From Candidatus Krumholzibacteriota bacterium (GTDB lineage Bacteria; Krumholzibacteriota; Krumholzibacteriia; JAJRXK01), in NCBI GenBank assembly GCA_029262065.1, contig JAJDAC010000048.1:62001-126000 (forward strand): a stretch of DNA of 64,000 nucleotides, read 5' to 3'. How positions within the stretch are numbered: the first letter of the stretch is position 1; the number at the start of each line of letters is the position of its first letter. The notes beneath the pieces were generated by a model, which was given only the letters and a program-made list of their open reading frames with translations, was not told where the DNA came from and searched no databases. Positions 25,769-29,860 of this stretch are shown piece by piece. A program made the position numbers and the translations under genes.

Positions 25769-26674
25769 CTAGTAGTTCTCGTCGCCCTCGATCTGCACCC
25801 GTACCTCGGGCACGTCGCGGTCACGATCTATGCCCAGGATCTGTACGGTTACTTCGTCGCCCACGCGATAGTACTGCCCGGCATCGGGCACGTAGCCCCG
25901 GTTCATGTCCTTCACGTGCAACAGCGTCTTGGCGTGTTCGTGCAAATCCAGAAACACGCCGTATTTCTTCACGGCCTGCACCCGACAGCGCACGACCTCA
26001 CCTTCGAGCGGTAGCTCGATGTCCCCGGCGCGCGGCGCGACCGGCGGTGGTGGGTCGTCCTGGTAGTGTCCATTGCCGTTGCTGTATTCGTACTCGTCGT
26101 CAGCGAAATCGGAGTCTTCTTCTGAATTGGTGCTGTGGCTTGCGGGCCGGCGTTCGGGCGGCCGCTTGTCGCTCTCGATATCCTCGCGCAGGTCCTGCAG
26201 GTCGATGTAGTTCACGCCCACCGACTGGCGCAGCTCCACGGCTACGTTCTGTTGCGTGGCCACGATCACCACGCGCTTGCCCCGGCTCTGCAGCGCTTCC
26301 ACCAACGGAACGAAATCGCTGTCACCCGTCACAAGGTAGACGGTGTCGAAGCGGGATTCTTCGGTAAGGGCGTCAATGGTCAGATCAATGTCGAGGTTGC
26401 CCTTGAGCGTGGTCTCGCCCGAGCCTCGGTCGTAGACGCTCTTGAGGATCTTCTTGCGAACCGCGAATCCCACCAGCGTGAGGTGGTGGAGGAATCGATC
26501 CTGTTCGGGTTCGGGGTTCGCCCGGTAGGCCTGGTACCAGCGGGCAGTTGCTAGATCTTTGTCTTCACCCAGTACGTCGAGGAAGCTGGGCCAATCAATC
26601 CACCAACCCAGTGCTTCCTTCTGCGCGAAATAGACGTTGGCTCCGTCTACGTAGATGGCGACACGTTCAGTCAT
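25769..26674 (-). CDS. NYN (LabA/DUF88) nuclease-like domain fused to an S1 RNA-binding domain
   Basis: 301 aa. N-terminal NYN/PIN-like domain (~1-165): VAIYVDGANVYF (Asp10, Asn13), KGNLDIDLTIDAL (Asp95, Asp97) and VTGDSDFVPL (Asp118, Asp120) are the acidic residues expected to bind metal for RNA cleavage. Residues ~165-218 are a very acidic, Ser/Pro-rich linker. The C-terminus (~220-296) is an S1-type OB fold (EGEVVRCRVQAVKKYGVFLD; GDEVTVQILGID). S1 suggests direct RNA binding, so a ribonuclease is the best inference. Start ATG at 26674. Lies between selD and a hydrolase on the same strand. Confidence 0.85.
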   Translation of the reverse strand: MTERVAIYVDGANVYFAQKEALGWWIDWPSFLDVLGEDKDLATARWYQAYRANPEPEQDRFLHHLTLVGFAVRKKILKSVYDRGSGETTLKGNLDIDLTIDALTEESRFDTVYLVTGDSDFVPLVEALQSRGKRVVIVATQQNVAVELRQSVGVNYIDLQDLREDIESDKRPPERRPASHSTNSEEDSDFADDEYEYSNGNGHYQDDPPPPVAPRAGDIELPLEGEVVRCRVQAVKKYGVFLDLHEHAKTLLHVKDMNRGYVPDAGQYYRVGDEVTVQILGIDRDRDVPEVRVQIEGDENY

Positions 26675-26797: not shown

Positions 26798-27853
26798 TTA
26801 CCAAATAATCAGAGGAAACTCTCCTTTCGTGGCCACCGATCCTACGACGGTAGCCTGATCATATCCCGCGGCGCGTAACGCCCTTACCGCTTTTGCCGCC
26901 TGGTCGCTGGGCAGCGAGATCATCAGTGGACCCGACGTTTGCGGGTCGTGTAGCAAGTGTCCTTGTTCCTCAAGCAGTTCTCGTTCGAACGTGACCTTAC
27001 CCTGTGTGCGTTTCTGGTTGGCATTGCCGCCGCCGCACGTGTGGCCTTGTCCCAGAAGTTCCACGGCCCGGTCGAGCAACGGCAGTGCGTCGTACTCGAA
27101 TCGTAGAGTCACTCCGCTTCCCTGTGCCATCTCCAGACCGTGCCCGGACAATCCAAATCCGGTGACGTCGGTCATGGCGTTCACGCCGAAGTCACGGGCG
27201 ATGGTGGCCGCGGGCCCATTCGACAGAGTCATGCTCGCTACCATTGTTGCATATGCAGGGTCACTTTCTGCAAGCTCGCCTCTCTTAAAAGCTGTCGCCA
27301 GCGCCGCGGTACCGAGGGGTTTGTTGAGAATCAGTGAATCCCCCACAACCGCGTCGCAGTTCCTCAGGATCTTGTCGGGGTGCACTTCACCCACGACCGC
27401 CAAGCCGAATTTGATTTCCTCGTCCTTGATGGTGTGGCCGCCCACGATGGGGCAGCCGGACGCCAGGGCGACCTCGTTGGCTCCGCCCAGCAGCTCCTGG
27501 TACACGGTGGCCGGCAGCTTGGGCGAGAAGCAGCAGATGTTCAGCGCGGCCAGGGGGCGTCCGCCCATGGCGTACACGTCGCTCACGGCGTTGGTGGCCG
27601 CCACTTGGCCGAAGGTGCGCGCGTCGTCGACGATGGGCGTAATGATATCTACCGTGAGGACGATGGCACGATCGTCACTCACACGAAATACGCCGGCGTC
27701 GTCGGCGGTATCGAAGCCGACCAGCACCCGGGGGTCGGCCTGCATCGGCGCGAGCCCCTCTAGAATGATCTCCAAGTCGCCCGGACTGAGTTTCGCAGCT
27801 CAGCCGGCAGCACTTGCGTACTGCGTCAGGCGGACCTTCTCGTGGTCGCTCAT
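26798..27853 (-). CDS. selD: Selenophosphate synthetase, itself a selenoprotein (in-frame UGA)
   Basis: 351 aa if the UGA at 27802-27800 is read as selenocysteine. SelD makes selenophosphate from selenide and ATP for tRNA-Sec. From ATG 27853 the protein begins MSDHEKVRLTQYASAAG-U-AAKLSPGDLE. This aligns without gaps to the family start (RLTQYSHGAGC-GCK in E. coli), with U18 at the essential Cys position and Lys21 at the essential Lys. Downstream motifs are intact: VLTVDIITPIVDD, NAVSDVYAMGG, GGHTIKD, TDVTGFGLSGHG, HDPQTSGPLM. A gene caller that stops at UGA would truncate it to a TTG start at 27775. A hairpin follows the UGA. 40 bp after an Omp85 gene; selA and selB are not in the window. Confidence 0.93.
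27770..27790 (-). promoter_or_regulatory. Candidate bacterial SECIS hairpin in selD mRNA
   Basis: Nine nt after the UGA codon the mRNA reads CUC-AGUC-CGGGC-GACU-UG-GAG. CUC pairs with GAG and AGUC with GACU, leaving a 2-nt UG bulge and a 5-nt loop containing GGG. Distance from UGA, small G-rich apical loop and side bulge fit the SelB-recognised bacterial SECIS type. Inferred from pairing only. Confidence 0.55.
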
Positions 27854-27893: not shown

Positions 27894-29198
27894 TCAGAAC
27901 GTCAGGGTGTCTTCGAATACAAATACGTTATCGCCATCGTCGGTTCTTGCCCATTCGAACCGGAAGCTTTTTGTATTCAGGTTTACGTGCGCGCCCAATC
28001 CGCGTGACCAACGGACGGGTACCGAAGAGAACGGGTCGTTGGCCTCGAAGCTCTTGCCCCAGTCATGGAACGCGTGTACGCCCAGCCCGACGGTGCGGCC
28101 GTCGCGTAGCGGCAAGATGAAGATGGGGCGCCGGATCTCGAGTGTGGCCAGGTAGCTCTGGTCGCCCTCGATGCTGCCGAAGTCCAGGCCGCGGAGGTTG
28201 GAGGGCCCGCCCAGGTAGGTGCGCTCGTACAGGGGCAGGGTGACGTCGGCGCCCCGGTACCAGACGCGAGCGGCCAGGATTTCGACGAAAGGAAGGCGAT
28301 AAAACGTCGCAAGCTGCGCCTCGAAGAAAGTGTACCCAGCCTCGTCGCCCTGACCCAGTCCGCCCACCGAGACCTGCCCTTCGGCGTGGACGCCGGCGCT
28401 GGGGTAGTACTGGATGTTACGCGTATCGAACGACGCGTTCAGGTCGAGACGGGGATCGGCGCCGGATCCGCTGAAGACGTCGCTCTCGTCGAATCCGAAG
28501 TCGCGGTACTGGTAGGTAATGCCCACTTGGCCATGTTGGCCGGCCGGTCGGGACACGCCGATCCAGGCGCCGGCTTCGCGCAGGCGAAACGACTCAAAGC
28601 GGAAGTCGTAGCGTTCCCAGTAGGCTCCCACGGCCAGACCCAACCTTGCGTTGCCCAGGATGTGGGGGTTGGACCAGCCGCCGTAGTAGCCGTGCTTGGC
28701 CCACCACGAGGTGGAGAGTTGGACGGTCTCGGCTCGACCGCGCACGTTCAGCATGCGTGCGTCGAGCCCCACGATGACGCCATCGTGACGTCGTTCGTAC
28801 TCGGCTCGCGGCGCTACCTGCACGCGTTGGTCTTCCTCGATCTGGATGACCAGATCGACCACCTCGGCCGAGCGTGACTGCTGGATATCGACGTACGCCA
28901 CGAAGTTCAACTGTTCCAACCGTTCCCATGCGTCCGACACCTCCAGGGCGTCGTACGAGTCACCCTCCTTCAGGCCCAGCGTCCGGTAGAGGATGTAGTC
29001 CTGGGTGACTTCGTTCCCCAGAAATGAAATGCGGCCGATCTTGCGATCGCCGCTTCGTTGTAGAAAAGGGTTCTGGGCCGAGGCGGTACTTGCGAACAGA
29101 AAGATCCCCAGGCCCACTGCGAAAATCGCAGTGGTGAATGCCCGGATCACAGTCGCGTGGACCGGCGAATTGGCCGAAAGTCGGGTACGGAAAAACAT
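27894..29198 (-). CDS. Omp85-family outer-membrane protein (POTRA plus barrel)
   Basis: 434 aa from ATG 29198. A signal peptide ends near FASTASAQ. A single POTRA-like domain follows (IGRISFLGNEVTQDYILYRT; DLVIQIEED), then a 16-strand-type barrel. The Omp85 lid-loop signature appears as YLGGPSNLRGLDFGSIEGDQ, and the protein ends with alternating hydrophobic residues closing on an aromatic (Phe). Shorter than BamA (one POTRA, not five), so it more likely belongs to the TamA/patatin-associated or surface-antigen branch. In-frame ATG at 29252 is a possible earlier start. Same strand as selD, 40 bp apart. Confidence 0.83.
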   Translation of the reverse strand: MFFRTRLSANSPVHATVIRAFTTAIFAVGLGIFLFASTASAQNPFLQRSGDRKIGRISFLGNEVTQDYILYRTLGLKEGDSYDALEVSDAWERLEQLNFVAYVDIQQSRSAEVVDLVIQIEEDQRVQVAPRAEYERRHDGVIVGLDARMLNVRGRAETVQLSTSWWAKHGYYGGWSNPHILGNARLGLAVGAYWERYDFRFESFRLREAGAWIGVSRPAGQHGQVGITYQYRDFGFDESDVFSGSGADPRLDLNASFDTRNIQYYPSAGVHAEGQVSVGGLGQGDEAGYTFFEAQLATFYRLPFVEILAARVWYRGADVTLPLYERTYLGGPSNLRGLDFGSIEGDQSYLATLEIRRPIFILPLRDGRTVGLGVHAFHDWGKSFEANDPFSSVPVRWSRGLGAHVNLNTKSFRFEWARTDDGDNVFVFEDTLTF

Positions 29199-29248
29199 GG
29201 CGCACACGCTACATCCAAACCCGATTGCTGGAAAGGTCGGACCGTCTC

Positions 29249-29860
29249 TCACATTCGAACGGATTCGACTCCGGCGGGGGCCGGCGACCGTTCCTGGGTG
29301 GCGAACTCGAATCGGCTGAGATGGAGCCCCAGGCTGGTGAGCCGTGGCTCGAGATCCTGGCGCAGATCAGCCGAGGTGGGTTTCGAACCCGGATCGTGTT
29401 CGAATCGTTCGATTGCGGCGCCCTCGACTACGCTGGTCGTAACCCGGAAGAAGGTCTCGCTGCTGATCTCTTCGGTATGGCGTAGGAACGCTTCGTACAT
29501 CTGGCTGGGATGACGGATCTCGATCCGGAACGAACCGCTGGCCGTGCCATCGGAACCATCCACGTTCCATGCATAGGACGGTAGCCCCCGCACTCGCAGA
29601 AACAGAATTCGATCCCCTGGGTGCACGATGACGCGGGCCAGAGGGTCGTGTTCGCCACGTGGGGCGTCGACCGACTCCAGCACGTGCAGGTTCGGCAACA
29701 GCACGGTAACGAGTTCGAAGTCCCGTACCAGCAACGCCACCTGGTCGTGGCCCACGTCCACGGCGAAACGGGGTTCGGCGAAACTGTCCACGTTGCACAT
29801 GGGACCCACCGGCCCATCCTGTTGTCGCGTCGACCAATGCAATACCGATGGTGTACTCAT
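29249..29860 (-). CDS. Putative SPFH/virion-core-like domain protein
   Basis: 203 aa. No signal peptide. The pattern resembles the SPFH family often labelled 'virion core protein': VGHDQVALLVRDFELVTVLL at the start, RIEIRHPSQMYEAFLRHTEE in the middle, and LRQDLEPRLTSLGLHLSRFE near the end. The family homology is an inference from these patterns. ATG 29860 overlaps the upstream gene stop (ATGA), so it is co-translated with the 181-aa helical protein. Function unknown; SPFH proteins usually oligomerise on membranes. Confidence 0.6.
   Translation of the reverse strand: MSTPSVLHWSTRQQDGPVGPMCNVDSFAEPRFAVDVGHDQVALLVRDFELVTVLLPNLHVLESVDAPRGEHDPLARVIVHPGDRILFLRVRGLPSYAWNVDGSDGTASGSFRIEIRHPSQMYEAFLRHTEEISSETFFRVTTSVVEGAAIERFEHDPGSKPTSADLRQDLEPRLTSLGLHLSRFEFATQERSPAPAGVESVRM

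Follow-up and report, generated by a model that had tools for sequence, protein, structure and literature searches.

A predicted selenocysteine-containing selenophosphate synthetase (SelD) in a Candidatus Krumholzibacteriota bacterium

In a stretch of 64,000 nucleotides from a Candidatus Krumholzibacteriota bacterium (contig JAJDAC010000048.1, positions 62,001 to 126,000; hereafter the window), the reading frame of a gene for selenophosphate synthetase (SelD; selenide, water dikinase) is crossed by a UGA codon at 27802-27800. The locus therefore raises the question of whether this codon ends or disables the frame, results from an error, or is decoded as selenocysteine (Sec). A preliminary description of the locus, made from the DNA letters, had proposed a Sec-containing SelD, and our sequence comparisons uphold this proposal: the gene almost certainly encodes a SelD that is itself a selenoprotein, with the UGA decoded as Sec.

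The selD frame and its in-frame UGA

The features of the coding region are as follows.
26798 to 27853, minus strand: selD, with 351 codons when the single TGA is read through and the stop TAA at 26800-26798; relatives are read in the same way
27800 to 27802, minus strand: UGA predicted to be read as Sec (residue 18, the catalytic Cys position), from translation and alignment
27791 to 27793, minus strand: conserved Lys (residue 21), encoded three codons past the UGA, from translation and alignment to PDB entries 3u0o and 2yye

The frame from 27853 to 26798 contains a single TGA, that of residue 18, and no other in-frame stop before the gene end. Its read-through translation scored 342.5 bits against the NCBIfam profile TIGR00476, whose cut-off is 125, and the match ran from position 1 to position 310 of the 311 in the profile; the Pfam domains AIRS and AIRS_C were also matched. 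The best solved chains were 3u0o (1.2e-62), which we take to be Escherichia coli SelD, and 2yye (1.1e-48; 169.4 bits), presumably the SelD of Aquifex aeolicus, whose native form we understand to carry Sec. U18 and K21 aligned with the Cys and Lys of both chains (AGCGCK in 3u0o and SGCAAK in 2yye) without gaps around the site, consistent with the gap-free family N-terminus and the placement of the UGA on the catalytic Cys that had been described. The Cys or Sec and the Lys three residues later have catalytic roles in SelD. The protein thus combines a whole-length family match above the cut-off with a Cys/Sec and Lys at this spacing, the two features by which we assigned it to SelD, and the alignment of its in-frame UGA to the Cys of homologues provides the Cys/Sec pair expected of a bacterial selenoprotein gene.

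In a list of open reading frames that obeys every stop, the same frame is represented only by an ORF at 26798-27775, with 325 amino acids, a TTG start at 27775 and no active site. This ORF speaks for a pseudogene or for a product whose translation begins past the TGA. However, the N-terminal part of the extended protein aligned from residue 1 in three family members, to which the protein is 53-59% identical, the profile was matched from its first position, and the remainder of the frame is free of further stops; we therefore give next to no credence to a pseudogene or a short product. The Sec reading accordingly corrects the gene model of the locus, from which a stop-obeying gene caller would drop the active site, as had been pointed out. 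On the same strand, the downstream neighbour of selD (window 25769-26674) encodes a fusion of NYN and S1 RNA-binding domains, and the upstream neighbour (window 27894-29252) encodes an Omp85/POTRA outer-membrane-type protein and ends in TGA.

Codon usage at the site and the decoding machinery

We compared the codon at residue 18 in 107 loci including the present gene, comprising 30 class-level loci (L018-L047, of which L018 is the present gene) and 77 loci from named genomes, which are scattered over many phyla and whose Cys set is mostly Clostridia by record title. The column was covered by 106 of the 107 loci and contained TGA in 59, TGC or TGT in 47, and nothing else. All of the 30 class-level loci have TGA, and the 77 named-genome loci have TGA (29), TGC (42) or TGT (5), except for one locus (L123) that lacks the column. 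A sequencing or assembly error, in which TGA replaced TGC or TGT in an ordinary Cys-SelD, would require the change of only one base, and Cys codons do occupy the column in 47 of 106 related loci. Nevertheless, 29 further class genomes and 29 named loci from other lineages also have TGA in this column, a recurrence that makes this explanation untenable, and the presence of Sec machinery (see below) also argues against it; we regard such an error as extremely improbable.

The residues that follow the column also differ between the two forms. All 59 TGA proteins have U-A-[A/S/G]-K (UAAK in 30, UASK in 27 and UAGK in two), and the 47 Cys proteins have CGAK (42), CGCK as in E. coli (four) or CAAK (one). 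The preliminary description had regarded the Ala after Sec and the missing His-Gly as an unusual active-site neighbourhood. Neither is in fact unusual, and the Ala is the rule rather than an oddity, since every TGA gene compared has it.

In a search of 58 genomes, SelD matches of at least 177 bits with an internal TGA were found in 48 genomes, the present one included (the position of the TGA was checked in 30 loci); the match in one genome (G014) has a TAG as well as the internal TGA. The same search yielded 16 stop-free SelD-type matches of at least 177 bits, and the 13 that were inspected all have Cys. Eleven of these (L156-L166) have the motif GCACK and 390-484 open-frame codons upstream, and the other two have GCSAK and 27 codons upstream. 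Six of the 11 genomes with such fusion-like Cys-SelDs have a TGA-SelD as well.

The genome assembly (95.6% complete, 59 contigs) also contains the genes for Sec synthesis and insertion: selA (C7:54221-55594; 467.8 bits, cut-off 267.9), selB (C58:35488-37347; 354.1 bits, cut-off 242.25) and tRNA-Sec (C17:51993-52084; 71.6 bits, gathering threshold 47), with the anticodon tca according to ARAGORN. The genome thus holds, together with the in-frame UGA, the set of selA, selB and tRNA-Sec by which Sec decoding in bacteria is recognised. The Sec system that had been implied to exist elsewhere in the genome was therefore found, and the objection that selA, selB and selC might be absent falls away because all three are present. 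SelB was above its cut-off in 54 of the 58 genomes, including this one. Next to the tRNA-Sec gene on C17, another, weak match to SelB (78.7 bits) resembles LepA by its sequence and was set aside; on C14, a further hit that passed the Rfam threshold for tRNA-Sec (47.4 bits) is a tRNA-Leu according to ARAGORN. Right beside selB ends an ORF of 275 residues (L002 649-1476) with a redoxin-like stretch, ITGSFSCGVYV, in which Cys is encoded; it appears to us deiodinase-like by eye, and it is absent from the list of T4_deiodinase matches in the genome.

Several genes of this genome are open through TGA, as would also be seen if UGA were reassigned genome-wide, for example to Trp, and selenium were not involved. 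Among the 28 coding-like frames of at least 900 nt in the window, however, the stop is TGA in 18, TAG in eight and TAA in two, so that a general reassignment of UGA has not occurred. Moreover, the 47 loci that have no TGA in the SelD column all encode Cys there and none encodes Trp, and a UCA tRNA-Sec, selA and selB are present. Reassignment to Trp would call for a tRNA-Trp with the anticodon UCA; the sole tRNA-Trp seen, at one locus rather than in a genome-wide scan, has CCA. Wholesale reassignment is thus a very remote prospect, and decoding of this UGA as Sec is preferred.

The region downstream of the UGA

The following candidate for a SECIS hairpin was found shortly after the UGA.
27771 to 27785, minus strand: putative bacterial SECIS hairpin UCCGGG-CGA-CUUGGA, from a 40-nt fold, a place conserved among relatives, and the consensus model in the available text of PMC13188914

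The hairpin has six pairs (two of them G-U) and a 3-nt loop, CGA, with G as the second loop residue, and the loop starts 20 nt past the UGA. It is present in the 40-nt fold, and its bases pair otherwise in folds of 61, 63 and 111 nt. These dimensions agree with the bacterial SECIS model, which in that text has a loop of 3-9 nt, a stem of 4-16 pairs, G within the first two loop positions and a distance of 16-37 nt after the UGA (PMC13188914), although the rule by itself also accepts most control positions: a loose version of it was satisfied in 30/30 class TGA genes (control positions, 89%), in 90% of the remaining TGA genes (79%) and in 89% of Cys genes (79%). The stability of the post-UGA region of selD alone was not above that of shuffled sequences (z = 0.13, -0.50 and 0.50; -0.85 in a second test), and Cys genes fold as stably as TGA genes in the region after the column.

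Since the rule fits most controls and the stability of the single sequence does not exceed that of shuffles, the support for a SECIS element comes from a comparison at fixed places. A hairpin of at least five contiguous pairs at either of two fixed registers, A and B, both picked after the class sequences had been seen, was found in 22/30 class TGA genes, 11/29 other TGA genes and none of the 47 Cys genes; among 5100 control positions, taken elsewhere within the class genes, the share was 0.9%. At register A, the inner six positions were paired in 84% of cases among 28 distinct class sequences, versus 13-53% when the register was slid by 1-3 positions; the corresponding values were 67% versus 30-56% for 24 distinct other TGA sequences, which hardly stands out, and 50% versus 28-78% for 46 distinct Cys sequences. 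At register B, the values were 77% versus 21-61% (class), 42% versus 33-59% (other TGA) and 43% versus 34-75% (Cys). Only the hairpin at a fixed place across relatives separates the TGA genes from the Cys genes.

On this basis, the ribosome would decode the UGA at 27802-27800 as Sec with SelB, tRNA-Sec(UCA) and the stem-loop whose loop starts 20 nt downstream. The Sec residue would lie in a flexible N-terminal selenium-binding loop and handle selenide in the ATP-dependent synthesis of selenophosphate, which SelA would in turn use to produce Sec-tRNA-Sec.

Other selenoprotein candidates and comparison with known systems

To which products would this selenophosphate be directed? In the families searched, ten UGA-decoding candidates were found in the genome, namely SelD and nine genes with thiol-redox motifs, which mark the organism as a Sec user. 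The 25 AhpC-TSA matches include seven with an internal TGA. The single T4_deiodinase match (108.9 bits) is one of these seven, and no match to this family was found in any of 14 control genomes. In the deiodinase-like candidate (L127, G000:C55:23845-24318), a protein that we liken to deiodinases, the TGA lies in FFGSYTUPPF. Other candidates have TGA in TPGUTVE (L130), GVWUPHC (L137), HFGUMFC (L143) and GTSWUPRC (L144, where the match is confined to profile positions 1-51 out of 124). Two peroxiredoxin-like neighbours (L140 1501-1842 and L141 1501-1845, in G000:C27:47514-48493), with GYGUVFC and GYGUPFC, form a candidate tandem pair of selenoproteins. Both SelW-like (Rdx) matches have a CxxU motif via TGA (YCGAU in L154 and YCETU in L155). 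The motifs TxxU (peroxiredoxin), UxxC (peroxiredoxin-like) and CxxU (SelW-like) are among the selenoprotein motifs listed in the available text of PMC13188914, and for deiodinase-like proteins that text gives UxxC, from which the UPPF of L127 differs.

All formate dehydrogenase matches in the genome were under the cut-off and none contains an internal stop, so the UGA-containing formate dehydrogenase that had been suggested as a companion did not materialise. Selenouridine synthase was represented in the genome only by a 20.5-bit fragment (cut-off 219.75), and the genome search yielded no second SelD, Cys-form SelD or fusion-like SelD, the two other SelD matches reaching at most 26 bits. The genome has no match to DsbA (PF01323). 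When the window was scanned by codon usage for TGA read-through, one weak site (15967, minus strand) was listed and selD itself was missed; the scan is therefore uninformative on the absence of further read-through genes.

Since neither a Cys-form SelD nor a selenouridine synthase above the cut-off was found, the product of SelD seems to be used for Sec synthesis only, that of its own Sec included. We are thus inclined, with some reserve, to think that the sole selenophosphate synthetase is a selenoprotein on which Sec synthesis depends in a closed loop, and that this loop is kept by peroxiredoxin-, deiodinase- and SelW-like selenoproteins and not by formate dehydrogenase. Sec-decoding organisms without FdhA were noted to have a Sec-SelD, most of them together with the selenouridine trait (PMC1794560, available text), and the self-dependent loop, if true, would be a sharper case of this pattern. 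The principle is established; the value of the present gene lies in its annotation and in a further example of a genome in which the only SelD apparently requires what it makes itself.

The crystallised chain of 2yye has SSGCAAKVGPGDL where the present protein has AAGUAAKLSPGDL; the Ala-Ala-Lys context is common to both, but Cys occupies the position of Sec in the crystallised chain. The E. coli protein (3u0o) belongs to the same family and shares the catalytic position, but is a Cys form with a G-C-G-C-K motif and without Sec. The SelDs of the fusion-like relatives differ in being Cys forms with G-C-A-C-K and a long upstream extension; in 11 relatives they recall the Ndh-SelD fusions described in PMC2398784 and PMC4561486, the upstream part being known here as an open frame alone. 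According to the available text of these sources, Sec occurs in 19% of the SelD genes of reference prokaryotes, always at the same position, with Cys in the rest (PMC4561486); 357 Sec-SelDs were counted in ocean samples, and few single-domain SelDs (<5%) have a second Cys in the active-site motif, which is written there as CxxC (PMC2398784). The selenoproteins of a marine deltaproteobacterium likewise include selenophosphate synthetase (PMC8318568). With the bacterial Sec-SelD family the present gene shares Sec at the same single position, a whole-length SelD, a hairpin just past the UGA, selA, selB and tRNA-Sec in the genome, and the U-A-[A/S/G]-K found in 58 other TGA genes, and it differs from the three members compared in the degree of sequence identity and not in kind. 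The selD gene described here is thus another case of the widespread and long-known Sec-SelD selenoprotein (PMC4561486, PMC2398784, PMC13188914).
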